From: an uncultured Roseicyclus sp.
Lineage (GTDB): Bacteria > Pseudomonadota > Alphaproteobacteria > Rhodobacterales > Rhodobacteraceae
Length of the DNA stretch: 64,000 nt
Direction: 5' to 3'
NCBI GenBank assembly: GCA_947494975.1
Contig: CANLXA010000004.1
Coordinates: forward strand, 591,001-655,000
Shown here: positions 16,553 through 34,301 of the stretch, in pieces
How positions within the stretch are numbered: the stretch's first letter is position 1
Layout of the letters: each line of letters starts with the position of its first letter
Made by a program: the position numbers and the translations under genes
Notes under the pieces: model-generated
What the model was told of the DNA's origin: nothing
The model's database searches: none
What the model saw: only the letters and a program-made list of their open reading frames with translations

Positions 16553-16602
16553 TTGACTCCACCTATGGAACGTTCCAAAACGTTCCAAATAGGAACGTTC
16601 CA
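16553..16602 (+). promoter_or_regulatory. Promoter and LacI-type operator array before Gfo/Idh operon
   Basis: A TTGACT -35-like box (16553-16558) is followed by TGGAACGTTCCA (16566-16577, perfect palindrome), a half-matching AAAACGTTCC (centre 16581.5), and AGGAACGTTCCA (16591-16602). CG-centred palindromes of this kind are characteristic of LacI-family operators. The identical 12-mer recurs at 27050-27061 before the GMC operon. The array overlaps the likely promoter, which suggests repression. The LacI protein encoded at 32068-33075 is the best candidate. Confidence 0.78.
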
Positions 16603-16620
16603 ATTCAGCGGAGACGGCAC

Positions 16621-17613
16621 ATGCGTTGGGGATTGATCGGGGCCAGCACCATCGCGTCCGAGCATATGATCGGGGCGATCCGTGCCTCGGGTGGGCATAT
16701 CGCAAGCGTCCTGTCCTCAAGCCCCGACCGTGCCGCGAGCTACGCCGCCGACCACGGCATCGACGCCGGTGTCACCGATCTCGACGCGGCGATGGACGGC
16801 GTGGATGCCGTCTACATTTCCACCACCAACGAAAAGCATCTGCCGCAGGCCATGGCCGCCATCGCGGCGGGCAAACATGTGCTGTGTGAGAAACCATTGG
16901 CGATGAACGTGGCCGACGCGGTGTCCATGGTGCAGGCCGCCGCGGCCGAGGGCGTGACCTTCGCCACCAACCACCACCTCCGCAATGCGGGCAGCCACCT
17001 CGCCATCCGCGAGGCGATTGCAGCAGGCCGTCTGGGGGACATCCTGTCGGTCCGTGTCTTCCATGCCGTCCACCTGCCGCCGCACCTGCAAGGCTGGCGC
17101 ATCGACAACCCAGGCGCTGGCGGGGGCGTGATCCCCGACATCACCGTGCACGACGCCGATACTGTGCGCTTTCATCTGGGCGAGGATCCGATTGACGTCG
17201 TCGCCATGAAAGCCGCCAGCGGTATGGGGCAGGGCGTGGAGGACAGCGCGATGTCGCTCTGGTCGATGCCCTCGGGTGCCATGGTCCAGACCCATGAGAG
17301 CTTCACCCACGCCTTTGCCGGAACGGGGATCGAGATCCACGGCACCAAGGGCTCCATCTTCGCGCGCGGTGTGATGACCCAGGCGCCTACCGGCACGGTG
17401 ATGCTTCGCACCGACGCGGGGGAGGAGGCGCTCAGCTATTCGACCCACGGCCTCTATGACCGCGCAGTGGGTCTGTTCACCAAGGCCTGCGCGGGCGAGG
17501 GCCGCCCTGCCGCCGATGGCGTGGACGGCGTGAAGTCGCTGGCCGTGGCCGCCGCTGTCAACAAGGCTGCGGAAACGGGCCAGCGGATCACCGTCGATTA
17601 TGGCAGGATCTGA
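16621..17613 (+). CDS. Gfo/Idh/MocA oxidoreductase, 1,5-anhydro-D-fructose reductase-like
   Basis: The 330-residue protein has a Rossmann N-terminus (GLIGASTIASEHMIGAI, residues 4-20) and the EKP motif (CEKPLAM, about 92-98). The C-terminal dehydrogenase domain contains HHLRNAGSHLAIREAI and VFHAVHLPPHLQGWR. From memory these segments closely resemble the 1,5-anhydro-D-fructose reductase of Ensifer (Sinorhizobium) morelense. That enzyme reduces 1,5-anhydrofructose to 1,5-anhydromannitol with NADPH. Other Gfo/Idh members oxidise sugars, so direction and substrate remain inferred. A GGAGA Shine-Dalgarno precedes the ATG and the operator array lies just upstream. First gene of a four-gene operon. 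Confidence 0.8.
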   Translation: MRWGLIGASTIASEHMIGAIRASGGHIASVLSSSPDRAASYAADHGIDAGVTDLDAAMDGVDAVYISTTNEKHLPQAMAAIAAGKHVLCEKPLAMNVADAVSMVQAAAAEGVTFATNHHLRNAGSHLAIREAIAAGRLGDILSVRVFHAVHLPPHLQGWRIDNPGAGGGVIPDITVHDADTVRFHLGEDPIDVVAMKAASGMGQGVEDSAMSLWSMPSGAMVQTHESFTHAFAGTGIEIHGTKGSIFARGVMTQAPTGTVMLRTDAGEEALSYSTHGLYDRAVGLFTKACAGEGRPAADGVDGVKSLAVAAAVNKAAETGQRITVDYGRI

Positions 17614-17614
17614 C

Positions 17615-19186
17615 ATGTCCAAGATCGTCACCGCGTCCGACGCCGTCTCCCGCATCAGGGACAATGCGGTTGTGACCGTCTCCAGTTCCTCCGCGCTTGG
17701 CTGCCCGGATGCCGTCTTGCAGGCGCTTGGCGAGCGGTTCGACGCGGAGGGCGCACCGCGAAACCTCACCACGATCCATCCCATCGCGGCGGGCGACATG
17801 TATGGCGTGAAGGGCGTGGACCACATTGCCAAGGACGGTTTGCTGGCGCGGATCATCGGCGGCTCCTACCCGTCCGGCCCGTCTTCCTTGCCCATGCCCG
17901 CGATCTGGCAAATGGTCGTGGAGGATCGTGTGGCGGCGTATAACGTGCCGTCAGGTGTCCTCTTCGACATGCACCGCGACGTGGCCGCCCGCCGCCCGGG
18001 CGTGTTGACGCAAGTGGGGCTGGAGACCTTTGTGGACCCGATCCGGGAAGGCTGCGCGATGAACGATAGCGCGGCCAAGGCCCCCATCGTTCACCGCACC
18101 GAATTCGCAGGCGACACATGGCTCCACTTCCCGAACATCGTGCCGGACGTCGCCATCATCCGCGCCACGACAGCGGATGAAAACGGTAGTCTGACCTACG
18201 AACATGAAGGCGCGTATCTGGGCGGGCTCGACCAGGCCATCGCCACCCGCAATCACGGCGGCCTCGTCATCGCTCAGGTCAAACGGGTGACCGCTGCCGG
18301 AAGCCTCCGCCCCCATGATGTGCATGTGCCGGGCCATCTTGTGGACCTCATCGTCGTCGCGCCGGATCAGAAACAAACCACCGAAACACCCTATGACCCC
18401 GCGATCAGCGGCGAAGTCATGCGCCCCTGGAACAGCTTTACCCTGGCAGACCACGGCGTCGAGAAGATCATTGCCCGGCGCGCCGCGATGGAGCTCAAGC
18501 GCGGCCAGACCGCCAATCTGGGTTTCGGCATCTCCGCCATGGTGCCGCGCATCCTGCTGGAAGAGGGTGCCCATGACGCCGTCACCTGGGCCATCGAGCA
18601 GGGCGCGGTGGGGGGCATGCCACTCACCGGTTTCGCTTTCGGCTGTGCGTCGAACGCTGACGCCTTCGTGCCATCCCCCAATCAATTCGCCTATTTCCAG
18701 GGCGGTGGGTTCGACGTGTCGTTCCTGTCCTTCATGGAGGTCGACGTGGACGGCAACGTGAACGTCTCCAAGCTCGGTAAGAAACCCTACCTGACGGCGG
18801 GCTGCGGCGGCTTTGTCGACATCACGGCGCACGCGACAAAGATCGTCTTCAGTGGGTACTTCGAGGCCGGCGCGCAGCTGGATCTGACGAACCAAGGCCT
18901 GCACGTCACCCAACCCGGCAAATTCACCAAGATGGTCGACGCGGTGGAGCATGTCACCTTCGCAGGCCGCCGCGCGAAGGCCCGCAATGCGGACGTCCTC
19001 TACATCACGGAACGCTGCGTGATGCGGCTGGGCGAAAACGGCCTTGTCGCGCACGAGATCATGCCAGGCATCGACCCGGAACGGGACATCGTTGCGGCCA
19101 GCGACGGGCGAGTCAGCGTGGCCAACGACGCAACCACGATGCCCCTCTCCCTGCTGCAGGATGCGCCGATGGGATTGCAGTTATGA
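17615..19186 (+). CDS. Acyl-CoA:acetate CoA-transferase, YdiF type (fused alpha-beta)
   Basis: The 523-residue single-chain family I CoA-transferase has the alpha-like half first and the beta-like half after about residue 290. The probable catalytic glutamate is Glu328 in IEQGAVGGMP, matching the E-x-G-x-x-G-G signature of YdiF and propionate CoA-transferases. It would move CoA between acyl-CoA and a free acid. The ATG at 17615 follows AGGA and was preferred to one 15 bases upstream that overlaps the previous stop. It is coupled by a 4-base overlap to the enoyl-CoA hydratase gene. Its presence beside sugar genes is unusual. Confidence 0.9.
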   Translation: MSKIVTASDAVSRIRDNAVVTVSSSSALGCPDAVLQALGERFDAEGAPRNLTTIHPIAAGDMYGVKGVDHIAKDGLLARIIGGSYPSGPSSLPMPAIWQMVVEDRVAAYNVPSGVLFDMHRDVAARRPGVLTQVGLETFVDPIREGCAMNDSAAKAPIVHRTEFAGDTWLHFPNIVPDVAIIRATTADENGSLTYEHEGAYLGGLDQAIATRNHGGLVIAQVKRVTAAGSLRPHDVHVPGHLVDLIVVAPDQKQTTETPYDPAISGEVMRPWNSFTLADHGVEKIIARRAAMELKRGQTANLGFGISAMVPRILLEEGAHDAVTWAIEQGAVGGMPLTGFAFGCASNADAFVPSPNQFAYFQGGGFDVSFLSFMEVDVDGNVNVSKLGKKPYLTAGCGGFVDITAHATKIVFSGYFEAGAQLDLTNQGLHVTQPGKFTKMVDAVEHVTFAGRRAKARNADVLYITERCVMRLGENGLVAHEIMPGIDPERDIVAASDGRVSVANDATTMPLSLLQDAPMGLQL

Positions 19187-19950
19187 GCGCGGTTCATCTG
19201 AATATCGATGGGCCCATCGCCCGCATCACGCTCGACAATCCCGCGAAGCTGAACGCCCTCACCGTCGAGATGTTGCAGCAGTTGGAGGAGGCCTGCGCGA
19301 CCCTCGAACGCTCCCCCCATGCGCGAGCCGTGATCCTGACGGGTGAAGGCAACCGCGCTTTTTGTGCCGGCGCCGACATCACCGGCTGGGGCGACCTGAC
19401 GCCCACCGATTTCGCCCGCAATTGGGTCCGCGAAGGGCACAGGATCTATGACCGGTTCGTCCGGCTGTCCAAGCCCACCATTGCCGTGATCCACGCCCAC
19501 GCGTTCGGCGGCGGCCTTGAACTCGCCGCCTGCGCCGACATCCGGGTCATGGCGCCCAACGCCACGCTGGCGCTGCCCGAAGCGCAGGTGGGCATCGTGC
19601 CGGGCTGGGGCGGCAACACGCGGCTCCTGCGCCTTCTGTCTGAGCCGGTCGTCAAGGAAATGGCTCTGTTCGGTCGTCGCCTCAACGCTGACCGCGCGCT
19701 GGCCTTGGGCTTCGTTTCTGACGTCTCCGACACCCCGCTCGCCACGGCTCAGGCGATAGCGGAACAGGCCATGGCCGCCTCCCCCCGCGCCCATGAAGTG
19801 GCGAAATACCAGATCCACGCCGCCGTCGGCGAAGACCGCGCCGCGATGATCGAGGCGCTTGGTGGCGGCATGATCGGAGCCACGGGCGACCGGGCCGAGG
19901 GTGTCGCCGCCTTCAAAGAGAAACGCCAACCTGACTTTTCCGGGGATTGA
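19183..19950 (+). CDS. Enoyl-CoA hydratase/isomerase family protein
   Basis: The 255-residue crotonase-fold protein has the oxyanion-hole segments FCAGADITGWGDL (about 63-75) and HAFGGGLELAACADIRVMA (about 106-124). PEAQVGIVPGWGGNTRL follows, with Glu in the usual catalytic place. The family hydrates or isomerises enoyl-CoA thioesters. The gene overlaps the CoA-transferase by four bases and precedes an aldehyde dehydrogenase, so these three probably act in one route on CoA-linked acids. The substrate is unknown. Confidence 0.92.
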   Translation: MSAVHLNIDGPIARITLDNPAKLNALTVEMLQQLEEACATLERSPHARAVILTGEGNRAFCAGADITGWGDLTPTDFARNWVREGHRIYDRFVRLSKPTIAVIHAHAFGGGLELAACADIRVMAPNATLALPEAQVGIVPGWGGNTRLLRLLSEPVVKEMALFGRRLNADRALALGFVSDVSDTPLATAQAIAEQAMAASPRAHEVAKYQIHAAVGEDRAAMIEALGGGMIGATGDRAEGVAAFKEKRQPDFSGD

Positions 19951-19953
19951 TCC

Positions 19954-21477
19954 ATGACCGAGTTGACCATCATCCCCTCCTCCGGAATCGCGCTCCCCAC
20001 CGCGTTCACGGCCCGGCACCTGATCGACGGCGTGTGGATGGACAGCGCCGATGGCGCCACCTCCGACCGCCATTCCCCGGCCCACGGCACGCGGGTCAGC
20101 ACAGCGGCGAAGGGCGGTAAGCCCGAAGCGGAAGCCGCCATCGCCGCCGCCCGCGCGAGTTTCGACGCTGGCGATTGGGCGTTTTCCAGCGGTGCATCAC
20201 GCGCGGCGATCCTGCTGAAGGTTGCGGACCTGATCGAAAAACATCTCGACCGGATCGCCCTTCTGGAAACACTCGAATCGGGCAAACCGATCAGCCAGGC
20301 GAAGGCGGAGATCTCAGGCGCCGCCGACCTCTGGCGCTATGCCGCCAGCCTCGCGCGGATGATCCATGGCGACAGCCACAACAGCCTCGGTGCAGACATG
20401 TTGGGTGTCGTTCTGAAGGAGCCCATCGGCGTCGTCTCCATCATCTGCCCTTGGAACTTCCCGTTCCTGATCGTCAGCCAGAAGCTGCCCTTCGCGCTGG
20501 CTGCTGGCTGCACGGCGGTGATCAAGCCGTCGGAACTGACGCCGTCGACAACCTGCATCCTGGGCGAGTTGCTGATCGAAGCGGGCCTGCCCGCGGGCGT
20601 TGCCAATATTGTCCTGGGCTTCGGCGATCCTGTCGGCGAAATCCTCTCCACCGATCCCCGGGTGGATATGGTGTCGTTCACCGGCTCCACCGGCGTCGGC
20701 AAACGGATTTCGGAAGCGGCCAGCGGCACGCTCAAGAAGGTATCGCTTGAGCTTGGCGGCAAGAACCCCCAAGTTATCTTCCCCGATGCCGATCTGGATC
20801 AGGCCGCCGATGCCATCACCTTCGGCGTCTATTTCAACGCGGGCGAATGCTGCAATTCGGGCTCCCGTATCATCGTGCATGAGGACGTGGCCGAGGCGCT
20901 GACCAAGAAGGTCGTGGCCCTGTCGCGCAAGGTTCCCTTCGGCGATCCGCTGGATCCCGAAACGCAAGTCGGCGCGATCATCTCGCCCGAGCACATGGCC
21001 AAGATCGACGGCTACGTGCAGGATGCCGTGGCAGATGGCGCAACGGTTGCGATCGGTGGCGCGGCGTTGGACGTCGATGGTGTCGGCCCGCAATTCTACC
21101 AGCCCACGGTGGTCACCAACCTGCGCCCCGACATGCCGATTGCGCGCGAAGAAGTCTTCGGCCCGGTCCTGTCGGTGCTGACCTTCCGCACCATGGAGGA
21201 GGCGCTGCGCCTCACGAACGATGCGGCCTATGGCCTTTCCGCAGGGGTCTGGTCCCGCGACATGTCCACTTGCCTGACCTTCGCGCGCCGCGCGCAGGCC
21301 GGCACGATCTGGACCAATACCTGGATGGACGGCTTCCCCGAAATGCCGTTCGGCGGCGTCAAGGAAAGTGGACAGGGGCGGGAGCTTGGGCGCTACGGCC
21401 TTGAGGAATTCCTTGAGGTCAAAACCGTGCAGATGCGCATCGGTGACACGCGGCGGCCCTGGGTGGCTCAGGAATGA
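19954..21477 (+). CDS. NAD(P)-dependent aldehyde dehydrogenase
   Basis: The 507-residue ALDH superfamily protein has LELGGKNP with the general-base glutamate (about 265-272) and the nucleophile region FNAGECCNSGSR (Cys299-Cys300). The PWNFPFLIVSQKLP substrate/cofactor segment and a C-terminal MPFGGVKESGQGRE are also present. It oxidises an aldehyde to the acid; sequence style is that of betaine-aldehyde/succinate-semialdehyde-like enzymes. It closes the Gfo/Idh operon, three bases after the hydratase stop. Its 3' end overlaps the convergent LacI gene by 10 bases. Confidence 0.93.
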   Translation: MTELTIIPSSGIALPTAFTARHLIDGVWMDSADGATSDRHSPAHGTRVSTAAKGGKPEAEAAIAAARASFDAGDWAFSSGASRAAILLKVADLIEKHLDRIALLETLESGKPISQAKAEISGAADLWRYAASLARMIHGDSHNSLGADMLGVVLKEPIGVVSIICPWNFPFLIVSQKLPFALAAGCTAVIKPSELTPSTTCILGELLIEAGLPAGVANIVLGFGDPVGEILSTDPRVDMVSFTGSTGVGKRISEAASGTLKKVSLELGGKNPQVIFPDADLDQAADAITFGVYFNAGECCNSGSRIIVHEDVAEALTKKVVALSRKVPFGDPLDPETQVGAIISPEHMAKIDGYVQDAVADGATVAIGGAALDVDGVGPQFYQPTVVTNLRPDMPIAREEVFGPVLSVLTFRTMEEALRLTNDAAYGLSAGVWSRDMSTCLTFARRAQAGTIWTNTWMDGFPEMPFGGVKESGQGRELGRYGLEEFLEVKTVQMRIGDTRRPWVAQE

Positions 21478-22508
21478 TGCAACCGATCGAAATCCGGCAT
21501 CAGGATATGGGTCAGCCCCTCCGGCTTGTCCCCCGCCATCCGGCGCAGGAGCATCTCGGCCATCTTGTGGCCGGTCTCCCGGAGGTCTTCATAGACCGTC
21601 TCGATTCGCGGGCGGATATTGTCGAAAATCGGCGAGGCGCGCTTGGCGAAGATATCGGCGTCCCGTCCCAGCACCGCGCCCGAATCGGCCAGCGCCGACA
21701 ACGTCACCAACGCTGTAACCTCGCCGACGCAAACGTACCCATCGGGTGGCGTATCCGACGACCGGCCGTCGCGCATGGCGGTGGCGATCTCGGCGGCGGA
21801 ACTGTCGAGCGTCACGCCGGCCACGATCTCATGATCAACGCCCGCCTCCCGCGCCGCGCTGAGGAAGCCGTAGCGCAGATGTTGGGTGAAGGTGAACCGA
21901 TCCTCGGGAAGGATCAGCGACAGGCGGTTGCGTCCCCGTTCGACCAACCGGGCAACGGCGATCCGCGCAAAAGCCTCGTTGTCGAAATCGACGTAAGGAT
22001 GCGGCGTGGTGAATTCCGTGCGCCCGTGGCTGACGAAGGGAAAATCGTTCTCCATCAGCAGCCTGACGCGGGGATCAAAGGCCTCGGTTCGGGTGAACAG
22101 GATGCCGTCGGCCAGATGATTCCGCAGGATGTTGCGCACCGGTTGCAACCGGTCTTCGCCGACATGGTCAGGGACGACATTGACGGAATACCCGGTGCCG
22201 CGCAGCGCCTCGGTAATGCCGCTGAGGAATTCATGGGTGAAGCCCAGAAACTCGTGTTCTGTGTTCAGAAGAAGCGTCACAACCTGCGTGCGTCCGGTCC
22301 GCAAGCGCCGCGCCGCGCGGTCGGGAACATAGCCCGCGGCCGCTGCGGCCGCCGCCACCTTGGCGCGGGTTTTCGTGGCGATTCGCGGATCGTCGGCCAA
22401 GGCCCGGCTGATCGTCGCGATCGAGAATCCCGTCGCTTCCGCCAACGAGCGAAGCGTCGGTTTGTCGCCGTTTGGCGCGGGGCTGGTATCAAGGATCTCG
22501 CGGGTCAT
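21468..22508 (-). CDS. LacI family transcriptional regulator (AglR-like)
   Basis: The 346-residue regulator has an N-terminal LacI HTH (RSLAEATGFSIATISRALA, about 20-38), a hinge helix (AARRLRTGRTQVV) and a periplasmic-binding-protein-like effector domain. The recognition helix FSIATIS differs from that of the other LacI protein in the window (VSKSTVS), which implies a different operator. It is divergent from the glucose-type ABC operon. Two AACGTT-centred palindromes lie between them, so it probably represses that importer and itself in the absence of sugar. Confidence 0.92.
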   Translation of the reverse strand: MTREILDTSPAPNGDKPTLRSLAEATGFSIATISRALADDPRIATKTRAKVAAAAAAAGYVPDRAARRLRTGRTQVVTLLLNTEHEFLGFTHEFLSGITEALRGTGYSVNVVPDHVGEDRLQPVRNILRNHLADGILFTRTEAFDPRVRLLMENDFPFVSHGRTEFTTPHPYVDFDNEAFARIAVARLVERGRNRLSLILPEDRFTFTQHLRYGFLSAAREAGVDHEIVAGVTLDSSAAEIATAMRDGRSSDTPPDGYVCVGEVTALVTLSALADSGAVLGRDADIFAKRASPIFDNIRPRIETVYEDLRETGHKMAEMLLRRMAGDKPEGLTHILMPDFDRLHHS

Positions 22509-22555
22509 GGCGCATTGTCGCCCTTAGGTTGTGCCGCGCCTAATATTGCGCGAGA

Positions 22556-22571
22556 TTTCAAACGTTTCAAT
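22556..22571. promoter_or_regulatory. Candidate LacI/AglR operator, proximal to regulator
   Basis: TTTCAAACGTTTCAAT is an imperfect CG-centred palindrome with 6 of 8 positions paired on each side (centre 22563.5). It lies 48 bases upstream of the leftward LacI start and resembles the second site at 22686-22701. Confidence 0.6.
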
Positions 22572-22668
22572 AGTGCTGTTTTCGCGGCCAATCTTTCTGC
22601 ACTGCGGAAAAATCACAATGAAACATGCTGTTCTGCAGAGATGCGTGCGATCACAATGAACAATTTCT

Positions 22669-22701
22669 GGTTGACTTCAACCGGATTTATAACGTTTTAA
22701 T
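22669..22701 (+). promoter_or_regulatory. Promoter and second LacI/AglR operator of glucose-type ABC operon
   Basis: A TTGACT -35-like box (22671-22676) lies in a small palindrome GGTTGA-CT-TCAACC. It is followed at an 18-base spacing by TTTTAA, a weak -10. The CG-centred palindrome TTTATAACGTTTTAAT (22686-22701) covers the -10 region, a typical position for repression. A GGGAGGA ribosome-binding site precedes the ATG at 22747. Confidence 0.6.
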
Positions 22702-22746
22702 TCTGTCAGCCCCGGCAAGGGGATCGGTCAATTGGGAGGAAAACGA

Positions 22747-23997
22747 ATGACCATGATGAAAAAACTCTACACCGGCGCGGCGGTTGTCGCCCTGTCCACG
22801 ACGGCAGTTGCCGCGCAGGAAGTCGAGGTTCTGCACTGGTGGACCTCGGGCGGCGAAGCGGCCGCTCTGAACGTCCTGCGTGAAGATCTCGCCGGCGGCG
22901 GCGTCGGCTGGACCGATATGCCCGTGGCCGGTGGTGGCGGCTCCGACGCCATGACCGTTCTGCGCGCCCGCGTCACCGCCGGTGATCCGCCGACCGCCGT
23001 GCAGATGCTGGGCTTCGCGATCCAGAACTGGGCCGAGGAAGGCGCATTGGCCGATCTGAACGCCCTCGCCGAAGAGCAGAACTGGAACGAGGTCGTCCCC
23101 GAGGCGCTTCAGCGGTTCTCCACCTATGAAGGCAACTGGGTTGCGGCACCGGTCAACGTGCACTCGACCAACTGGGTCTGGGCCAACACCGCCCTGATGG
23201 AAGAGCTTGGCATCGAACAGCCCACCAGCTGGGAAGAATTCGTCGCCGCCATGCAGACCGCCCAGGATGCCGGTTACACCGCGCTCGCCCATGGCGGCCA
23301 GGCCTGGCAGGACGCCACGATCTTCGATTCGATCGCAATGGGCGCCGGTGGCCCGGAATTCTACCAGGCGGCCTTCGTCGATCTGGATCCCGAGGCGCTT
23401 GGCGGTGCCGAGATGGTCGAAGCGTTCAACCGCATGGACACCCTGCGCGGCTTTGTGGATGACAACTTCTCCGGTCGCGACTGGAACCTCGCCACGGCGA
23501 TGGTCATCAACGGCGAAGCTCTGTTCCAGATCATGGGCGATTGGGCGAAGGGTGAATTCGTCAATGCGGGTCTGACCGCGGGCGAAGAATTCCAGTGCTT
23601 CCGCGTTCCCGGATCCGAAGGCACGGTAACCTTCAACTCCGACCAGTTCGCGATGTTCAACGTCGAAGACGAAACCGACCAGGAATCGCAGGTTGCCATG
23701 GCGTCCGCCGTGATGAGCCCGGAATTCCAGATCGCGTTCAACCTCGTCAAAGGCTCCGCGCCCGCGCGGACCGACATCGACCCGTCCTCGTTCGATGCCT
23801 GCGGCCAGGCGGCCATGGCAGACCTCGCGGCGGCTGGCGAAGGCGGCACACTCTTCGGCTCCATGGCCCACGGCCACGCCAACCCGCCCTCCGTCCAGAA
23901 TGCGATGTATGACGTGATCACCGCGCATTTCAACGGTGAGTACGACGCCGAGACCGCGGCGGCCGAAATGGTCACCGCCGTCGAACTGGCACAGTAA
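22747..23997 (+). CDS. Glucose/mannose ABC transporter substrate-binding protein (GtsA type)
   Basis: The 416-residue protein has a signal peptide ([16 protein letters not shown], cleavage after VAA near 23). The mature N-terminus [16 protein letters not shown] and the segments [42 protein letters not shown] and [17 protein letters not shown] match the Pseudomonas GtsA/GltB glucose-binding family. It would capture glucose or a similar hexose. The ATG at 22747 has a GGGAGGA Shine-Dalgarno at good spacing. First gene of an importer operon opposite a LacI regulator. Confidence 0.93.
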
Positions 23998-25880: not shown

Positions 25881-25885
25881 GTCCC

Positions 25886-27001
25886 ATGGGATTTCTCGAC
25901 ATCAACAACGTCACAAAATCCTACGGCGCGGTGGAGGTCCTGCATAAGGTCGACATCCAGGTGCAGGAAGGCGAGTTCCTCGTCCTGGTCGGCCCGTCCG
26001 GCTGCGGCAAGTCCACACTCCTGAACATGATCGCGGGGCTTGAGGGGATTTCCTCGGGTGAGATCGCGATCAAGGACCGGGTCGTGAACAACATCGCCCC
26101 TGCCAAGCGCAACATCGCCATGGTGTTCCAATCCTACGCCCTCTACCCCAACATGACCGTGGGCAAGAACATCACCTTCGGCCTGGAAATGCAGGGCACG
26201 CCCAAGGCGGAGCGGGACAAGGCCATGGCCGATGTCGCCCAACTCCTCCAGATCGAAAACCTGCTGGATCGCAAGCCGGGCCAGCTCTCGGGCGGTCAGC
26301 GTCAGCGCGTCGCCATGGGCCGCGCGCTCGTCCGCGACCCCGATGTGTTCCTCTTCGATGAGCCGCTCTCGAACCTCGACGCGAAGCTGCGCGTCGACAT
26401 GCGGACCGAGATCAAGAAGCTGCACCAGAAGCTCGGCACCACCATCGTCTACGTGACCCACGACCAGATCGAGGCGATGACGCTCTCCACCCGCATCGCG
26501 GTCATGTATGACGGCTACGTCCAGCAGCTCGGCACGCCGAAGGAGATCTACGACAACCCCGCAAACCTCTTTGTGGCGACCTTCATGGGCAGCCCCGCGA
26601 TGAACGTGCTCTCCTCCAAACTGGTGGAGATGAACGGCGCGATCCATGCCCAAATCACCGGGGCCGAGGGGCAGGACCAACACCTGCGCATCGAAAACGC
26701 GCCCGACGCCTACCGCGCCTATCTCAACAAGGAGGTGATGCTCGGCATCCGGCCCGAGGCGATCACCGACCCCGAAGGGGCGGACCGCAACGCGCGCAAC
26801 ATCCAGATGCTGACCAACACCGTCAGCGTGACGGAGCCCGCCGGCGCCGACACCTTCGTCAGCACCACGCTGTCGGGCAAGGATTGCATCGCCCGGATGC
26901 GCGCCGATGCCGATGTCCACCCGAACCAACCCTTTGAATTTGCGGTGAACATGGACAAGGCGGTTCTGTTCGATCCCAAGACGGAAGACCGTATCGCCTG
27001 A
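25886..27001 (+). CDS. Glucose-type ABC transporter ATP-binding protein (UgpC/MsmK type)
   Basis: The 371-residue ATPase has Walker [10 protein letters not shown] (36-44), signature LSGGQRQR (134-141), a Walker B VFLFDEP nearby and a C-terminal TOBE/OB domain from about 240. It powers the glucose-type importer of the three upstream genes. A longer in-frame reading extends far upstream across the permease gene, but the ATG at 25886 begins the conserved domain. A terminator follows the stop. Confidence 0.94.
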
Positions 27002-27007
27002 CCATCG

Positions 27008-27039: not shown

Positions 27040-27049
27040 CACTTGGAAT

Positions 27050-27061
27050 TGGAACGTTCCA
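27050..27061. promoter_or_regulatory. LacI-type operator before GMC operon
   Basis: The perfect palindrome TGGAACGTTCCA is identical to the site at 16566-16577. It ends 19 bases before the GMC start codon, so a bound repressor would block transcription or its start. The LacI gene inside this same operon (32068-33075) is the likely partner. Confidence 0.78.
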
Positions 27062-27080
27062 GACATACGAAGAGAGGGTT

Positions 27081-28586
27081 ATGAACGACGCCGATATCAT
27101 CATCGTCGGCTCCGGCATGGGGGGCGCGACGCTGGCCGCAGGGCTGGCGGGATCGGGCCTGCGTGTGCTGATCGTTGAGCGCGGCCAGCTTCTGCATGAC
27201 AGCCCGGAGGCGCGCGACCCCGAGGCGATCTTCCGCGACGGCCATTTCCGCCCGGACGAGACCTGGCTCACCCCCGATGGCACCCGCTTCAACCCCGGCA
27301 ATTACACCTGTGTCGGCGGCAATTCCAAGTTCTACGGCGCGGTGATGATGCGCTACCGCGAGGCTGATTTTGCCCCGATCCGCCATATGGGCGGGACAAC
27401 GCCCGGCTGGCCCATCGACCATGCCACGCTCTCCCCGTTCTACGCCCGGGCCGAGGCGCTCTATCAGGTGCGCGGTGACGCGCGCGCCGATCCGTCCGAG
27501 CCGCCCCATGACAGCGCATATCCCCACCCCCCCATCCCCCACGAACCCGATATCGTCCGCCTCGCCACCCGTCTGACCCGCGCCGGTCTGACGCCATCGC
27601 CCCTCCCGCTCGCCGTCGATCTGGATCGCTGGCTCAGCCGCGCGCAGACCCCGTGGGATGCCTTCCCCGACACGACTGGCGGCAAGCTGGACGCCGAAAG
27701 CGCGGCCCTCGTGACGGCACTGGCCGATCCCAACATCACGCTCCGCACCGGCGTCGAGGTCCGGAAGATCGAGGCCGACGGCACCCGCATCACCGGCCTC
27801 CTTACCTCCGCCGGTCGCCTGACCGCCCCGCGCATCGTACTCGCCGCCGGGGCCGTCCACAGCGCCGCCCTGCTCCTGCGCTCCGCCGATGAAGACCATC
27901 CCAACGGTCTCGCCAACCGCTCCGATCAGGTGGGCCGCAACTTCATGAACCACAATGCCAGCGCCGTCCTGGCGCTCAGCCATCGGCGCAACCGGTCGGT
28001 CTATCAGAAAACTCTCCAGATCAACGACTGGTATCTGGGCACGGGGGAGGAGCCGCCCCTTGGCAACGTCCAACTTCTCGGCCGCGTCTCCACCCCCATC
28101 CTCGCCGCGCAGACAGGCCTGCCAAGGCCCCTCGCGGCCCTGATCGCCAACCACGCCATCGATTTCTACGCCATGTCCGAGGATCTGCCCGATCCCGAAA
28201 GCCGGGTGACAGTCCGGGGCGATGACATCGTGCTCGATTGGAAACGCTCCAACTGGGACGCGCATCTGGCCCTTGTCGCCAAGCTGAAAGCCACCCTCAA
28301 ACGCGCAGGCTTCCCCATCGTCTTGTCGCGCGCCTTCGACCGCCGCACGCCATCGCACCAATGCGGCACGGCGCGGTTGGGGGCCGATCCGGCAACCTCC
28401 GTCTGTGACCCGCTTGGCAAGGCCCACGACCTCGACAATCTCTATATCTGCGACGCCTCGCTCCTGCCCACATCGGCGGCGGTGAATCCGTCGCTGACCA
28501 TCGCCGCGCTGGCACTGCGGCAGGCGGACCACCTCAAGGACTCTTCAAGCAGCGATGCGACAGGGCAAAAGGAATTCGTGCAATGA
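27081..28586 (+). CDS. GMC family oxidoreductase (sugar dehydrogenase-like)
   Basis: The 501-residue FAD enzyme has the dinucleotide motif GSGMGGATLAAGLAGSG (about 10-26) and a glucose-methanol-choline type C-terminus, HQCGTARLGADPATS... and CDASLLPTSAAVNPSLTI. It is of the short pyranose/gluconate-dehydrogenase or glucoside-3-dehydrogenase-like kind rather than choline dehydrogenase. No signal peptide is visible. It would oxidise a sugar or sugar-alcohol hydroxyl to a ketone. It heads the six-gene operon behind the TGGAACGTTCCA operator and overlaps the SDR gene by four bases. Confidence 0.9.
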   Translation: MNDADIIIVGSGMGGATLAAGLAGSGLRVLIVERGQLLHDSPEARDPEAIFRDGHFRPDETWLTPDGTRFNPGNYTCVGGNSKFYGAVMMRYREADFAPIRHMGGTTPGWPIDHATLSPFYARAEALYQVRGDARADPSEPPHDSAYPHPPIPHEPDIVRLATRLTRAGLTPSPLPLAVDLDRWLSRAQTPWDAFPDTTGGKLDAESAALVTALADPNITLRTGVEVRKIEADGTRITGLLTSAGRLTAPRIVLAAGAVHSAALLLRSADEDHPNGLANRSDQVGRNFMNHNASAVLALSHRRNRSVYQKTLQINDWYLGTGEEPPLGNVQLLGRVSTPILAAQTGLPRPLAALIANHAIDFYAMSEDLPDPESRVTVRGDDIVLDWKRSNWDAHLALVAKLKATLKRAGFPIVLSRAFDRRTPSHQCGTARLGADPATSVCDPLGKAHDLDNLYICDASLLPTSAAVNPSLTIAALALRQADHLKDSSSSDATGQKEFVQ

Positions 28587-29293
28587 AAGCGCTCATCACA
28601 GGCGGCCAGCAAGGCATCGGCCTTGGCATCGCGCAGGCGCTCCACGCGGCAGGGTGGGAGATTGCCGTGGCCTCCGAACAGCCCGAGGCCGATCTCCCTT
28701 TCCCCGCAACCTATCGCCAGCACGACGTCACGAACATCGACGCGATCCCCGCCTTGCTTGACGCCGTTGGCCCGGTAACAACGTTCGTCTCCAACGCCGG
28801 TGTCAGCGCGATGCAGCGGGGCGATCTGCTCGACATGAACCCGGACAGTTTCGATCGCTGCATGGCCGTCAACACCCGTGGCGCGTTCTTTCTTGCACAA
28901 GAAGTTGCGCGCCGGATGCTCAACCAACCCGCCGAACCGTTTCGCTCCATCACGTTCATCACGTCGGTCAGTGCGTCCATGACCAACCAGGATCGCGCGG
29001 AATACTGCGCCTCCAAGGCTGCCACGGCGTCCCTTGCGCAGGCCTTCGCCATGCGCCTCGCGCCCGAGGGGATCGGTGTTTACGATATCCGCCCCGGTAT
29101 CATTGAAACGCCGATGACCGCCCCCGTGGCCGACCGCTACACCCCGCGCATTCCGGAATTGATCCCGCAGGCCCGGTGGGGGCAGCCGAAAGATATCGGC
29201 ACCGTCATGGTCCCCATTGCCCGCGGCGATTTCGCCTATTCGACGGGGGCCGTGATCCCCGTCGATGGCGGCTTGTCGATCCACCGGTTTTGA
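28583..29293 (+). CDS. SDR family oxidoreductase
   Basis: The 236-residue short-chain dehydrogenase has TGGQQGIGLGIA (6-17), NAGVS, and the catalytic Tyr-x-x-x-Lys in AEYCASKAA near residue 134. It ends with a typical IPVDGGLSIHRF. Best resembles 3-ketoacyl-ACP reductase (FabG)-like sugar dehydrogenases. It probably reduces or oxidises a keto intermediate made by the adjacent GMC enzymes. It overlaps the first GMC gene (ATGA), and 11 bases separate it from the second. Confidence 0.92.
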   Translation: MKALITGGQQGIGLGIAQALHAAGWEIAVASEQPEADLPFPATYRQHDVTNIDAIPALLDAVGPVTTFVSNAGVSAMQRGDLLDMNPDSFDRCMAVNTRGAFFLAQEVARRMLNQPAEPFRSITFITSVSASMTNQDRAEYCASKAATASLAQAFAMRLAPEGIGVYDIRPGIIETPMTAPVADRYTPRIPELIPQARWGQPKDIGTVMVPIARGDFAYSTGAVIPVDGGLSIHRF

Positions 29294-29304
29294 GGGGGGG
29301 CATC

Positions 29305-30891
29305 ATGAGCGAATCCTATGATTTCATCGTCATCGGCGGCGGATCCGCAGGCTCCGTCATCGCCGCGCGCCTGTCCGAGAATCCGGGCGTGTCCGTATGT
29401 CTGCTGGAGGCCGGCGGCTCCGACCGGCACCCGTTCTTCCACCTGCCCGCGGGCTTCGCCAAGATGACCAAGGGCATTGCGTCCTGGGGATGGTCGACGG
29501 TTCCGCAAAAACATATGCAGAACAAGGTCTTCACCTATACCCAGGCGAAGGTCATCGGCGGTGGTTCGGCCATCAATGCGCAGATCTATACGCGCGGCCA
29601 TCCCCTTGATTACGACGAATGGCGGCAGATGGGCTGTGAGGGTTGGAGCTATGAAGACGTCCTGCCCTACTTCCGAAAGTCCGAGGATAACGACACCTAT
29701 TCAGGGCGCTTCCACGGGCAGGACGGCCCCCTCGGCGTCTCGAAGCCCGCCGCACCCTTGCCGATCTGCGAGGCCTATTTCGAGGCGGCCAAGGTCCTTG
29801 GTATTCCGTTCAACGAAGATGTCACGGGCGAGGTTCAGGAAGGCGCAGCCTACTACCAGTTGACGCAGAAGAACGCCCGTCGGTCCTCCGCCGCGATGGC
29901 CTTCCTGCATCCCAACAAAAGCCGCCCGAACCTGACCGTGAAACTCCGCGCCAATGTCCGGCGGATCCTGGTGGAAAACGGCGTGGCCAAGGGGGTGGAG
30001 ATGCTCGACCGCTCCCTGATCCATGCGGGGACCGAGGTTATCCTCACTTCCGGCGCCATCGGCTCGCCGCGTCTGCTGCAACTCTCGGGGCTAGGCCCGG
30101 CCGATCATCTACAAGAACTTGGCATCGACGTGGTGCTCGACCAGCCGCAGATCGGCAGCAACCTGCAAGATCATCTGGATCTCTACTGCATCGCCGAAGT
30201 CTCCGGCCCCCACACCTATGACCGGTTCGCCAAGCCGCATCTGAGCGTGCTGGCGGGCTTGCAATACCTCTTCACCAAGACAGGCCCCGTCGCGTCCAGC
30301 CTCTTCGAGACTGGCGGCTTCTGGTATGCCGACGAAAATGCCCGCTCCCCCGATCTGCAATTTCACCTCGGTCTCGGCACCGGGATCGAGGCCGGGGTGG
30401 CCGCGATGCCCGAAGGCGGCGTCACGCTGAATTCCTGCTACCTCCGCCCCCGGTCACGCGGCAGCGTGCGCCTGCAATCGGCCGACCCGACCAAATCGCC
30501 CCTCATCGACCCCAATTACTGCGCCGATCCGCAGGACCGCGCCATGTCGATCCGTGGCCTCAAGCTGACACAACAAATCCTGTCCCAGGACCCGCTCAAG
30601 TCCTTTATCAGGGCCGAACGCCTCCCCGGCCCGGACGTGCAGACCGACGACGATTACTTCAACTTCATCTGCCAGCATTCCAAAACCTCCCACCATTGTG
30701 CGGGCACCTGCGCCATGGGGCCAGGCGACAGCGCGGTCGTGACCCCGCGTCTGCGCTTTAACGGCATCGAAAACCTCCGCGTGGCCGACGCCTCGATCAT
30801 GCCCAATGTCGTTTCCTCCAACACCAACGCGCCCACGATCATGATCGGTGAAAAAGCCGCTGACATGATCCGCGAAGATCACGGGATATAG
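29305..30891 (+). CDS. GMC family oxidoreductase (choline dehydrogenase-like)
   Basis: The 528-residue FAD enzyme has GGGSAGSVIAARLSENPGV (about 11-29), the GMC signature GGGSAINAQIYTRGHPLDYD (about 84-103) and a C-terminal HHCAGTCAMGP region with the catalytic histidine, then NTNAPTIMIGEKAAD. This is the choline/alcohol dehydrogenase branch, which has broad primary-alcohol and polyol substrates. The ATG at 29305 follows a G-rich GAGGGGGGG. Two GMC enzymes of different subtypes in one operon suggest two successive oxidations. Confidence 0.92.
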   Translation: MSESYDFIVIGGGSAGSVIAARLSENPGVSVCLLEAGGSDRHPFFHLPAGFAKMTKGIASWGWSTVPQKHMQNKVFTYTQAKVIGGGSAINAQIYTRGHPLDYDEWRQMGCEGWSYEDVLPYFRKSEDNDTYSGRFHGQDGPLGVSKPAAPLPICEAYFEAAKVLGIPFNEDVTGEVQEGAAYYQLTQKNARRSSAAMAFLHPNKSRPNLTVKLRANVRRILVENGVAKGVEMLDRSLIHAGTEVILTSGAIGSPRLLQLSGLGPADHLQELGIDVVLDQPQIGSNLQDHLDLYCIAEVSGPHTYDRFAKPHLSVLAGLQYLFTKTGPVASSLFETGGFWYADENARSPDLQFHLGLGTGIEAGVAAMPEGGVTLNSCYLRPRSRGSVRLQSADPTKSPLIDPNYCADPQDRAMSIRGLKLTQQILSQDPLKSFIRAERLPGPDVQTDDDYFNFICQHSKTSHHCAGTCAMGPGDSAVVTPRLRFNGIENLRVADASIMPNVVSSNTNAPTIMIGEKAADMIREDHGI

Positions 30892-30894
30892 ACC

Positions 30895-32058
30895 ATGCGA
30901 TTGCCCACCTATGCCGGAACGCTGGAAGACTACGCGCTTGTGGGCGACCCGCTGATCCCCCGCGCGCCGAAGGTGCCGCTCACCCGCACCGCCTTCGCCG
31001 CCGCCCATGTTGTCAGCGACCCGCTGGCCGAGCGCGACCCCTGGCAGGGCCGCCCGGCAGTGGATTGGGACGCAACTCTGCGGTTCCGTGAAAATCTGTG
31101 GGATCAGGGCCTTGGCCTCGCCGAAGCCATGGACACCGCCCAACGGGGCATGGGCGTGGATTGGGACACCGCGCGCGAGTTGATCGACCGCACGATGGCC
31201 GCCGCCAAGGCCCATCCCATGAAACCCCGCGTCGCCTGCGGGGCGGGCACCGACCACGTCCCGCTCAAGGACCTGACCGACCCCGTCCGCATCAAATCCG
31301 CCTATTCCGAACAGATGGAGGCTGTTGAGGCCGCCGGTGGCCAAATCATCCTCATGGCCACCCGCGCCCTTCCGGCCATCGGCGCCGGGCCCGAGACCTA
31401 TGCCCGCGTCTACGACGAGCTCATCACCCAGGCCGCGCAGCCGGTGATCCTGCACTGGCTCGGCGACATGTTCGACCCCGCGCTCAAGGGCTATTGGGGT
31501 GGCGCCTCAATCGATGAGGCCAACGCAATCGTGCTCGACCTCATCACCCGTAACGCGGCCAGGATCGACGGCATCAAGATTTCCCTCCTCGACCAAGGCC
31601 ACGAGGAAACCTTCCGCGCCAAACTACCCGAATCCGTCCGCCTCTACACAGGTGACGATTTCAACTATGCCACGCTGATCGAAGGCGACGGCCCCCACTA
31701 TTCCCACGCGCTTCTGGGCATCTTCGCCGCCATCGCCCCCGCCGCGGCCCAAGCCCTCGACGCCCTCGCGCAAGATGACCGTGAAACGTATCATGCGCTC
31801 CTCGCCCCGACCGTTCCGCTCAGCCGCGAAATCTTCAAGGCACCGACCCAATTCTACAAGGCAGGCATCGCGTTCCTGTCATGGCTGAACGGCCACCAGA
31901 GCCACTTCATCATGCCAGCAGGCTTCCAATCCTCCCGCGAGATCACCCACTACGCGCAAGTGTTCCGCCTCGCCGATCAAGCCCGGCTCCTGACCGACCC
32001 TGACCTCGCCACGCACCGCATGGGCCAATTGCTGGCGCTCCACGGGATCGACGGGTAA
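30895..32058 (+). CDS. DUF993 protein (dihydrodipicolinate synthase/aldolase superfamily)
   Basis: The 387-residue protein appears to be a DUF993 member, a TIM-barrel family related to DHDPS/N-acetylneuraminate lyase. Lys228 in DGIKISLL sits where the Schiff-base lysine is expected at a strand end. Other conserved-looking segments are ACGAGTDHVPL, ILHWLGDMFDP and LYTGDDFNY. No DUF993 activity is known to me. In this operon a retro-aldol cleavage of an oxidised sugar acid is a reasonable guess. It starts three bases after the second GMC stop; the Shine-Dalgarno is weak. Confidence 0.82.
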   Translation: MRLPTYAGTLEDYALVGDPLIPRAPKVPLTRTAFAAAHVVSDPLAERDPWQGRPAVDWDATLRFRENLWDQGLGLAEAMDTAQRGMGVDWDTARELIDRTMAAAKAHPMKPRVACGAGTDHVPLKDLTDPVRIKSAYSEQMEAVEAAGGQIILMATRALPAIGAGPETYARVYDELITQAAQPVILHWLGDMFDPALKGYWGGASIDEANAIVLDLITRNAARIDGIKISLLDQGHEETFRAKLPESVRLYTGDDFNYATLIEGDGPHYSHALLGIFAAIAPAAAQALDALAQDDRETYHALLAPTVPLSREIFKAPTQFYKAGIAFLSWLNGHQSHFIMPAGFQSSREITHYAQVFRLADQARLLTDPDLATHRMGQLLALHGIDG

Positions 32059-32067
32059 CACCGAAAC

Positions 32068-33075
32068 ATGAACCGCCGCCCCACCATCCTCGATGTCGCC
32101 GCCAAGGCAGGCGTGTCGAAATCGACCGTGTCGCTGGTGCTGCAAAACTCCAGGCAGGTGAAGGATGAGACGCGGGACGCCGTGCGCGCGGCCATGGCCG
32201 AGATCGGGTATGTCTACAACCGCGCCGCGGCCCAGATGCGCTCCCAATCGGCAGGCCTTGTCGGCCTTGTCATCAACGACCTTCGCAACCCGTTCTTCAC
32301 GGAATTCGCCACCGTTCTGCAAATGACGCTGGCCGCGAAGGGCTACGCCACCGTCATCGCCAATAGCGACGAAGACGCCGATCTTCAGGCCAAACTCGTC
32401 GGCTCCATGATCGAACACGGCGTCTCCGCGCTTGTCGTGTCGCCCGCCTATGGCGATGGCGGCGCCGCGTTTGACCAGATCGAACGCGCGGGCCTGCCTG
32501 CCATCCAGGTCCTGCGCAAGACCGATCCGCGCACCGGCCTCTTCCCTTTCGCCAGCTTCGATTACGCCGCAGGCTCGGCCCTTGCCACGCGCCACCTGAT
32601 GACCCAGGGCGGCGAGCGGATCGCCTTTGTCGGCGGCATCGAGGGCCGCGAGATCACCGAAGAACGCAAGTCGGGCTATCTGGCCGAGATGAAGCGCGCG
32701 GGCGCCGATCCTGTCACGTTGCACGGGCGCAGCACACGGGCGTTCGGGGTCGAGGCCGCGCAGGACCTGATCGAACTCGATGTGGAGTCTGTTGTCTGTT
32801 TCAATGATCTGGTCGCGCTTGGCCTGCATGCAGGCTTTGCCCGCGCGGGCGTGGCGGTGGGCACGGATGTCCGCATCGTCGGCTTCGATGACATCGAGGA
32901 TTGCGCGCTCGTCTGGCCGCAACTCTCCTCCGTCGCCTGCGATATCGACGGGTTTGCGCGCGCCACGGCGGATCGCCTTCTGGCGTGGATGCAAGACGCC
33001 GAACCGCCGCCCCCCGAACATCGCGCGCCGGTCGAATTGGTGGCGCGGGCCTCCAGCACAGGACGCGTTTCATGA
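32068..33075 (+). CDS. LacI family transcriptional regulator
   Basis: The 335-residue regulator has a LacI HTH at the extreme N-terminus (ILDVAAKAGVSKSTVSLVL, about 7-25), the hinge MRSQSAGLVGLV and a sugar-binding-type effector domain (FASFDYAAGSALATRHL, VGFDDIEDCALVWPQLSSV). It lies inside the GMC operon, 9 bases after the DUF993 gene, and its stop overlaps the glycerate kinase start. It is the best candidate to bind TGGAACGTTCCA before this operon (27050) and before the Gfo/Idh operon (16566), which would make it autoregulated. Confidence 0.93.
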   Translation: MNRRPTILDVAAKAGVSKSTVSLVLQNSRQVKDETRDAVRAAMAEIGYVYNRAAAQMRSQSAGLVGLVINDLRNPFFTEFATVLQMTLAAKGYATVIANSDEDADLQAKLVGSMIEHGVSALVVSPAYGDGGAAFDQIERAGLPAIQVLRKTDPRTGLFPFASFDYAAGSALATRHLMTQGGERIAFVGGIEGREITEERKSGYLAEMKRAGADPVTLHGRSTRAFGVEAAQDLIELDVESVVCFNDLVALGLHAGFARAGVAVGTDVRIVGFDDIEDCALVWPQLSSVACDIDGFARATADRLLAWMQDAEPPPPEHRAPVELVARASSTGRVS

Positions 33076-34301
33076 GCCCTGACGCCGTCCTCCGATCCCT
33101 CTTCGCCCGCGCGGTGGAGGTGGCGGATCCGATGCAAAGCCTCGCCGCCGCCCTGCCACCCAAACCCGACGGCGGCGTCCTGGTGATCGGCGCGGGCAAG
33201 GCCAGCGCGCGCATGGCCGAGGCGGTGGAGGCCCAATGGGGCCCCTGCGACGGCCTCGTCATCACCCGCTACGGCTATGCCCGCCCCTGCCAAGGCATCG
33301 AGATCGTCGAAGCCGCCCACCCCGTGCCCGATGCGGCGGGGGAGGTCGCGACCAAGCGCATGCTCGCCTTGCTGGATACCGTGGGGGAGGGGGAGTTTGT
33401 CCTCGCGCTGATCTCCGGCGGCGGCTCCGCGCTCCTGACGGCCCCCGCGGGCGACATCACCTTGGCGGAGAAGCAAAAACTCACGCAGGACCTTCTGGCT
33501 TCCGGCGCGCCGATCGGAGAGATCAACGGCATTCGCAAACAGATCTCCGCGGTGAAGGGCGGCAAGCTGGCGGCGGCGGCTTACCCGGCGCGGATGCTGT
33601 CGCTGATGATTTCCGATGTGCCGGGCGATGATCCGGGCGACATCGCCAGTGGCCCGACAGTGGGCCATGCGGGCGACGCAGCCCGCGCGTTGCAAGCGCT
33701 GAAGACGTGGAACGTCACCCCCGCGCCGTCCATCGCGGCCTATCTGCACCGCGGCGGCGATCCCGTTGCGCCGTCTGACCCGCGCCTTGGCCGTGTGACG
33801 AACGTCATCTACGCCGCGCCGTCACAATCCCTGTCGGCGGCCGCCGAACTGGGGCGGTCCGCCGGATATGCGGTAGAGCTCTTGGGAGATTCCATCGAGG
33901 GCGAGGCGCGCGACGTCGCCGCAGACCACGCCCGGATTGCCAAGGCGTCCGCCCCCGGCACCCTGATCCTCTCGGGCGGTGAGCTCACCGTGACGCGGCG
34001 GGGCGACGGTGTGGGCGGGCCCAATGCGGAATATGCCCTCGCGCTTGCCCTTGCCCTGAATGGTGCGCCGAACATCCACGCCATTGCCTGCGATACCGAT
34101 GGCGTTGACGGCGCGGCCGAAGTGGCGGGCGCGGTGATCGGGCCCGACACGCTATCCAGGGCGCGGGCCCGCGGCGTTGATCCGCAAGCCGCGCTCGACC
34201 GGAACGACGCACACAGCTTTTTTGGCCAAATCGGCGATCAGGTTGTTCCCGGCCCTACATTGACGAACGTGAATGACTTTCGCGCAATCCTCATCCTGTG
34301 A
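33072..34301 (+). CDS. Glycerate 2-kinase (GckA/TtuD, MOFRL family)
   Basis: The 409-residue protein has the DUF4147 N-terminal half (LVIGAGKASARMAEAVE near 35; ISGGGSALLTAPAGDITLAEK near 115; NGIRKQISAVKGGKLA near 150). A C-terminal MOFRL domain follows (ILSGGELTVT and ACDTDGVDG). It phosphorylates D-glycerate at C2, feeding glycolysis. It overlaps the LacI gene (ATGA) and ends the GMC operon, which hints that the pathway yields glycerate or hydroxypyruvate/tartronate semialdehyde. Confidence 0.92.
   Translation: MSPDAVLRSLFARAVEVADPMQSLAAALPPKPDGGVLVIGAGKASARMAEAVEAQWGPCDGLVITRYGYARPCQGIEIVEAAHPVPDAAGEVATKRMLALLDTVGEGEFVLALISGGGSALLTAPAGDITLAEKQKLTQDLLASGAPIGEINGIRKQISAVKGGKLAAAAYPARMLSLMISDVPGDDPGDIASGPTVGHAGDAARALQALKTWNVTPAPSIAAYLHRGGDPVAPSDPRLGRVTNVIYAAPSQSLSAAAELGRSAGYAVELLGDSIEGEARDVAADHARIAKASAPGTLILSGGELTVTRRGDGVGGPNAEYALALALALNGAPNIHAIACDTDGVDGAAEVAGAVIGPDTLSRARARGVDPQAALDRNDAHSFFGQIGDQVVPGPTLTNVNDFRAILIL

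Follow-up and report, generated by a model that had tools for sequence, protein, structure and literature searches.

A probable LacI-family regulon joining an anhydrofructose reductase-like gene set, a sugar-type ABC transporter and a DUF993 gene set in Roseicyclus and related alphaproteobacteria

Positions 16566-34664 of a 64,000-nucleotide stretch of contig CANLXA010000004.1 from an uncultured Roseicyclus sp. (positions 591,001 to 655,000; the window hereafter) encode a 1,5-anhydro-D-fructose reductase (AFR)-like protein, enzymes of CoA and aldehyde metabolism, an ABC transporter, several further oxidoreductases, a protein of the family DUF993 and two regulators of the LacI family, LacI1 and LacI2. 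Sequence comparisons lead us to regard this segment, with good confidence, as one catabolic gene cluster that forms one LacI2 regulon, a statement that does not extend to the substrate. Its features are as follows.

16566..16577, predicted LacI2 operator O1, TGGAACGTTCCA, found by sequence match
16591..16602, predicted LacI2 operator O2, AGGAACGTTCCA, 25 bp after O1
16621..17613, + strand, AFR-like Gfo/Idh oxidoreductase (Pfam; 388.6 bits to 4koa, 373.2 to 2glx)
17600..19186, + strand, YdiF-type CoA-transferase (Pfam; 324 bits to ydiF, 2ahu)
19183..19950, + strand, enoyl-CoA hydratase/isomerase family protein (Pfam)
19954..21477, + strand, aldehyde dehydrogenase, ALDH (Pfam)
21468..22508, - strand, LacI1, the second LacI-family regulator, recognition helix FSIATISRAL
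22747..23997, + strand, solute-binding protein of a glucose/galactose-type ABC transporter (structure and sequence matches)
24091..24999, + strand, ABC permease (Pfam)
24996..25880, + strand, ABC permease (Pfam)
25880..27001, + strand, ABC ATPase with a MalK OB fold (start approximate; scanned within the open reading frame 24974-27001)
27050..27061, predicted LacI2 operator O3, TGGAACGTTCCA, inside the cluster before GMC1, in the closest relatives only
27081..28586, + strand, GMC1, FAD-dependent (closest solved relatives FAD glucose dehydrogenase and fructose dehydrogenase)
28583..29293, + strand, SDR oxidoreductase (NF009386, 291 bits, cut-off 250)
29290..30891, + strand, GMC2, choline-dehydrogenase/alcohol-oxidase type (domain and similarity matches)
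30895..32058, + strand, DUF993 protein with a DHDPS/NAL-type barrel and an invariant K228; a single copy was found in the genome
32068..33075, + strand, LacI2, the regulator assigned to GGAACGTTCC, recognition helix VSKSTVSLVL
33072..34301, + strand, glycerate 2-kinase type protein (DUF4147 and MOFRL domains)
34356..34664, + strand, Dabb-domain protein; in many relatives a homologue directly follows GMC2

These assignments bear out the gene calls of an earlier, sequence-only reading of the same DNA, which had named the AFR-like Gfo/Idh protein, the YdiF CoA-transferase, the hydratase, the ALDH, the two GMC enzymes, the SDR, the DUF993 protein, one LacI regulator and the glycerate 2-kinase; the ABC transporter (22747-27001), LacI1 with its candidate operators and the Dabb gene were absent from it. 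The AFR-like protein is similar over its full length to 4koa and 2glx, both of which are named 1,5-anhydro-D-fructose reductase. LacI2 scores above the Pfam cut-offs for the LacI helix-turn-helix domain (PF00356) and for the periplasmic-binding-like effector domain (PF13377), and the kinase falls under the equivalog cut-offs of the two NCBIfam models that it matches (166.7 bits vs 550 and 147.7 vs 670). An open reading frame on the + strand at 21474-22700 was rejected as a gene, as it has no Pfam match and reads as the antisense of LacI1.

A sequence search recovers the palindromes where that reading had placed them, namely two identical copies at 16566-16577 and 27050-27061 and a near copy at 16591-16602. 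O1 and O2 lie upstream of the genes for AFR, CoA-transferase, enoyl-CoA hydratase and ALDH, and O3 lies upstream of those for GMC1, SDR, GMC2, DUF993, LacI2 and the glycerate kinase. Exact copies of the inner 10-mer GGAACGTTCC number three in the window; 100 shuffles gave 0.07 on average and never more than 1. The 4.55 Mb genome holds five copies in all; the two outside the window lie inside reading frames of 252 codons (an FHA-domain gene, judged by eye) and 648 codons (thrS, likewise by eye), and the three in the cluster are thus the only copies in the genome outside such frames.

The relatives (genomes are numbered G, loci and contigs L) show that the palindrome and the regulator travel together. 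In a sample of 248 genomes of the family, LacI2 orthologues, counted at E-values up to 1e-60, are present in 35, and the 12-mer is found in 24 of these 35 as opposed to 23 of the 213 genomes that lack LacI2 (Fisher p = 1.4e-12). The reversed 12-mer, used as a control, occurs in 25 of the same 213 genomes, so the rate of the 12-mer in them is that of the background; one of the 23, G195, has the AFR gene set and two exact sites. A site with one mismatch or none lies no farther than 250 bp from the first gene in all 27 cluster fronts that are in view (the window is one of them, as is G195, where no LacI2 match reaches the threshold), whereas such a site occurs in 20 of 5000 random 260-bp stretches; fronts out of view are omitted from this count. 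A second site with up to two mismatches lies 21-34 bp away in 24 of the 27. Four of the fronts (G238, G182, G084 and G195) were chosen through a known site, but the other 23 were chosen independently of it, through the contig of the LacI gene or as the window itself, and every one of them carries a site. The association extends to more distant groups, in which 24 loci encode a LacI protein with 35-39% identity to LacI2. A site with no more than one mismatch stands within the 450 bp before the LacI gene in 23 of them.

Of 58 relatives, 52 have the recognition helix VSKSTVSLVL unchanged and 6 depart from it in one residue. Within the genome, which has 13 LacI-family genes, LacI2 alone carries it, the nearest other helix being LTKSTVSRAM. 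An even, CG-centred palindrome that tracks its regulator is what is expected of an operator of the LacI/GalR family, and LacI2 (32068-33075) is likely to be the regulator of the GGAACGTTCC palindromes. The sequence-only reading had named the LacI at 32068 as controller of both gene sets and had left to be checked whether the palindrome sits at random positions in relatives. It does not, in view of its tracking of LacI2, its presence at all 27 fronts and the reversed control, and sites stand at both gene sets; the predicted regulatory link is thus well supported, and more strongly so than had been stated.

That reading had described two linked operons, and the link proves closer than claimed, since the two sets form one conserved cluster that is contiguous in many relatives. 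Beyond the organism's own family it is seen in that of Phyllobacterium and in two other groups (L191, L196). The recurrent order begins with AFR, CoA-transferase, hydratase, ALDH, binding protein, two permeases and ATPase, and continues with GMC1, SDR, GMC2, DUF993, LacI2 and kinase; it was read around LacI2 orthologues, where some clusters have genes missing and some contigs are cut, with identity thresholds for the presence of a gene set per protein. In 20 of 22 relatives compared, the gap between the ATPase and GMC1 is at most 94 nucleotides as aligned and contains no operator. In the Phyllobacterium family, L191 and L196 the LacI gene comes first and the same genes follow. Most matching clusters of the Phyllobacterium family have AFR behind the LacI gene, and DUF993 is divergent from LacI in most clusters of these three groups, being placed in L191 at the end with Dabb and kinase genes. 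For the Phyllobacterium family, Phyllobacterium itself and 20 others of the 32 LacI matches were inspected, 11 being left out. Neither AFR nor DUF993 was seen in L228, L229 and L231, of which L229 is cut short. Class-wide searches gave few matches outside the organism's own family (12 of 385 in one, and 4 of 385 with the own genome included in the other), and a search of the family of G394 gave 1 of 17. The joint occurrence in relatives of the same genes, the same site and the same kind of regulator suggests that the two gene sets probably serve one pathway.

Two records stand apart taxonomically, L121 (titled Nocardioides marinus) and L113 (titled Flavobacteriales), in which the cluster occurs with a DUF993 that is 76% and 74% identical, respectively, to that of the window. 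Mislabelled or mixed assemblies are a likelier explanation for them than transfer.

LacI1, which is encoded between the two gene sets, may have two palindromes of its own on the side of the transporter genes.

22558..22569, candidate LacI1 operator, TCAAACGTTTCA, close relatives having an identical or almost identical palindrome
22688..22699, candidate LacI1 operator, TATAACGTTTTA, palindrome kept in close relatives

Both are CG-centred, lie between LacI1 and the transporter, are kept in close relatives and vary in others; among 21 relatives with LacI1 that were examined for such palindromes, L156, L158 and L224 show none. They are read as candidate operators of LacI1 itself, which would then use such AAACGTTT-type sites to control the transporter genes separately.

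Two other explanations of the GGAACGTTCC sites have to be set against control by LacI2. The position of LacI1 (21468-22508) between both gene sets would suit it as their common regulator, but it is present in the neighbourhood seen in only 11 of the 58 relatives whereas the GGAACGTTCC sites are general, its recognition helix is different, and AAACGTTT-type palindromes precede the transporter genes in most LacI1 loci; we consider this assignment very improbable and reject it. The palindromes could also be chance or structural repeats with no shared regulator, and it is true that with up to two mismatches allowed the window has three matches against a shuffle mean of 2.05, i.e. no excess. The exact cores tell otherwise (three vs 0.07), as do the 27 of 27 fronts and the tracking of LacI2, and chance is rejected as scarcely credible. 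Several observations do weigh against control of one cluster by LacI2. The random control was drawn from all DNA, which is mostly coding, and not from intergenic stretches. The 24 LacI2 genomes that have the exact 12-mer do not all have it at the cluster front: 18 do, in G030, G067, G077, G107 and G155 it lies elsewhere, and in G190 the copies are unlisted. The fronts of G067, G077 and G107 have a one-mismatch site, and the exact copy of G077 precedes a GMC1 homologue. A further 11 LacI2 genomes are without an exact 12-mer: at the front, a site with one mismatch is present in five of them (G034, G098, G104, G152 and G230), and G235 has one before GMC1, while in G021, G022, G118, G166 and G191 the front is out of view. 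L225, the remaining one of the 24 distant loci, has no site within one mismatch upstream of its LacI gene. The 12-mer alone is a weaker marker in the Phyllobacterium family, where 66 of 247 genomes have it in exact form anyway, vs the LacI protein in 32 of 151. Many sites in that family have one base changed. O3 is not general either, being shared by one of the 22 relatives compared (L036, one mismatch), although it is also found exactly in L101-L103 and with one mismatch in L104, L107 and L109. Finally, a kinase gene close to the cluster was seen in no more than 11 of the 58 relatives; the remainder may have it elsewhere in the genome.

Further copies of the site occur beyond the cluster in some relatives. 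Exact GGAACGTTCC copies lie just past the 3' end of LacI2 or 1-4 kb on in L041 (2469-2570), L047 (5254-5289), L052 (8416), L061 (10532), L062 (7013) and L065 (10514), and these might mark extra members of the regulon. G067 has eight exact 12-mers on three other contigs, the maximum in the family sample; three of these sites were retrieved (L170, L171, L172). G107 has, in addition to the sites of the cluster, a GGAACGTTCC site (L050, 5553-5616) immediately in front of a LacI paralogue that shares 40% identity with LacI2.

Pfam gives the DUF993 family no function, and the name was not found in the literature searched. The DUF993 protein of the window is 55% identical to a solved structure (4dnh, SMc04132 of Sinorhizobium meliloti). 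The predicted model has the DHDPS/NAL (beta/alpha)8 fold, with TM-scores of 0.55-0.66 over the query for the 49 matches listed after 4dnh; DHDPS, NAL, 2-keto-3-deoxyarabonate dehydratase and 1-pyrroline-4-hydroxy-2-carboxylate deaminase are among its neighbours in fold. All 22 members compared share K228, a residue that the model places on strand 224-230, counted here as barrel strand 6. The Schiff-base lysine of the DHDPS/NAL superfamily is on the sixth barrel strand, and we propose from the model that DUF993 is a Schiff-base (class I) lyase of this fold. In DHDPS a catalytic tyrosine follows strand 5. In DUF993 strand 5 reads VILHWLG and so lacks a tyrosine at the presumed place, which would speak against the proposal.

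DUF993 also occurs outside the cluster, in L131 (6543-12004) beside Gfo/Idh and xylose-isomerase-like genes and in L132 (11149-12859) beside xylose-isomerase-like and shikimate-dehydrogenase-like genes, in both cases a sugar- or cyclitol-type setting.

AFR, SDR and DUF993 tend to co-occur in the neighbourhoods seen. Of 46 neighbourhoods (the window and 45 relatives, 13 of the 58 relatives being omitted as cut by contig ends or unclear), 31 have all three genes, 9 have none, 3 have AFR only, 2 have SDR only and 1 has AFR with SDR; DUF993 occurs without AFR and SDR in none of the 46. The SDR of G182 was scored as unknown, as its contig begins inside GMC2. We read the three as an accessory branch on a core that consists of the transporter, GMC1, GMC2, Dabb, ALDH, CoA-transferase and hydratase. 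Two points count against making much of the pattern. The absence of a gene means its absence from the fetched stretch, which in G640 ends only some 600 bp past the LacI gene. DUF993 shows at least 7 state changes and AFR 5 on the LacI2 tree, with 5 independent pairs on supported branches; the Fisher p of 1e-7 for the co-occurrence ignores kinship, and with only these 5 pairs the co-occurrence is not significant once kinship is respected. The Dabb gene was considered as a substitute for DUF993 and rejected, as it occurs both with and without DUF993.

The model of the transporter's binding protein matches 4r2b (Oant_3817 with bound glucose) with TM-scores of 0.91 (query) and 0.96 (target) at 60% identity, and the next matches are glucose- or galactose-binding proteins; this likeness suggests that the substrate is probably monosaccharide-like. 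We envisage that LacI2 would control the cluster from the GGAACGTTCC operators before AFR (O1, O2) and GMC1 (O3) and, as its own gene lies behind O3, would be indirectly autoregulated. The transporter would import a monosaccharide-like pyranose, whose oxidation state would be altered by the FAD enzymes GMC1 and GMC2, the SDR, AFR and ALDH. To judge from their families, the CoA-transferase and the crotonase-fold enzyme may handle a CoA-bound acid. The DUF993 lyase would act in the accessory branch together with AFR and SDR, and glycerate, as a product of DUF993 or of the core route, would be phosphorylated by the MOFRL-type kinase, whose presence suggests glycerate as an end product. The pathway drawn in the sequence-only reading, with oxidation of a sugar, aldol cleavage by DUF993 and phosphorylation of glycerate, appears plausible in outline, each of its reactions being a proposal. 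As to the substrate itself, a 1,5-anhydro-hexose such as 1,5-anhydrofructose, 1,5-anhydromannitol or 1,5-anhydroglucitol is put forward tentatively as the best candidate.

Reportedly, Kuhn described the 1,5-anhydrofructose catabolism of Sinorhizobium morelense in 2006. According to a 2025 review (PMC12441222), Rhizobiaceae reduce 1,5-anhydrofructose to 1,5-anhydromannitol, which then becomes mannose via an unidentified C1-hydroxylating enzyme. The S. morelense pathway, as given in section 5.1 of that review, starts with AFR, and the window likewise has an AFR-like gene; it differs in that the AFR of the window is flanked by GMC, CoA and DUF993 enzymes and that 11 of 46 clusters are without AFR. 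The E. coli route for 1,5-anhydroglucitol is described in the same review as using glycyl radical enzymes, and differs from the cluster of the window. The oxidative deoxyribonate pathways, as presented in PMC6365646, share with the cluster SDR oxidation, C-C cleavage, CoA chemistry and a glycerate kinase. They cleave with a beta-keto acid cleavage enzyme or a thiolase, of which a Pfam scan of the cluster proteins shows no domain, and the window has DUF993, GMC1, GMC2 and an ABC sugar transporter.

A probable counterpart of the cluster lies in S. meliloti, where the tags SMc04390-SMc04401 fit the 12-gene order of the LacI-first clusters, a match by numbering and not by sequence; the S. meliloti DUF993 protein (4dnh), similar to that of the window, has the tag SMc04132. 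A table in PMC12542648 gives SMc04390 as L-sorbose dehydrogenase, SMc04391 as an SDR and SMc04392 as a dehydrogenase, PMC4960864 gives SMc04396 as a dextrin-induced sugar transporter gene, and PMC4560400 gives SMc04401 as a regulator with a predicted regulon, so that the regulator is not wholly new; in the passages concerned the block is given no function. Local regulons of the LacI family, as surveyed by Ravcheev 2014 (PMC4052901), likewise combine an even, CG-centred palindrome with a local catabolic regulon and an in-cluster regulator; the string 'GGAACG' is absent from the main text of that survey, and the regulon may be listed in its supplements or in RegPrecise. The statement of the sequence-only reading that no described pathway has this gene set holds for the set as a whole in the literature searched, but not for its parts: the AFR step is described in PMC12441222, and the regulon of the probable LacI2 counterpart was predicted in PMC4560400.

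An aerobic, non-phosphorylating, partly CoA-linked and so far undescribed route for pyranose derivatives, likeliest 1,5-anhydro-hexoses, in which DUF993 would be a class I lyase of a new kind acting on the AFR/SDR product, is a possibility that we advance with considerable reserve. The 11 of 46 clusters without AFR count against it, as they imply that the core substrate need not be an anhydro-sugar. The cluster might instead serve general utilisation of glucose, galactose or maltodextrin, with AFR and DUF993 as side activities, a view favoured by the match of the binding protein to glucose- or galactose-bound structures and by the dextrin induction of SMc04396, a counterpart by locus-tag position (PMC4960864). 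We find this unlikely: a Pfam scan of the cluster proteins detects no glucosidase, hexokinase or Entner-Doudoroff domain, the CoA-transferase and hydratase fit no ordinary glucose route, and the match to S. meliloti is one of numbering only. DUF993, for its part, might belong not to the aldolases but to the dehydratases or to some other Schiff-base enzymes that share this fold, with cleavage taking place elsewhere, e.g. in the crotonase-fold enzyme. Its fold and invariant lysine fit an aldolase and a dehydratase alike, and the dehydratase and the deaminase among its fold neighbours favour this view; nothing speaks directly against it, but the glycerate kinase of some clusters fits C-C cleavage. 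This reading is quite conceivable.

Upstream of the cluster, at 11612-16537, the window has a second carbohydrate-type ABC set (binding protein, two permeases and ATPase) that ends just before O1; a 54% homologue of its ATPase occurs in the relative L162, likewise on that side of the AFR genes. Farther upstream, at 8201-10736, CT_C_D, CT_A_B and LamB_YcsF genes stand in a row, an arrangement like that of the 5-oxoprolinase operons PxpBCA.

For the annotation of alphaproteobacteria, TGGAACGTTCCA together with the helix VSKSTVSLVL provides a clean regulator-site pair by which this cluster can be recognised. With DUF993 placed behind a defined operator, in the company of AFR, SDR and a transporter of monosaccharide type, its candidate substrates come down to a short list. 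The cluster likewise offers candidate enzymes for the step after AFR, which the 2025 review (PMC12441222) calls unidentified, and the pyranose-derivative route, if true, would fill the enzyme gaps in the 1,5-anhydrofructose catabolism known from Rhizobiaceae.

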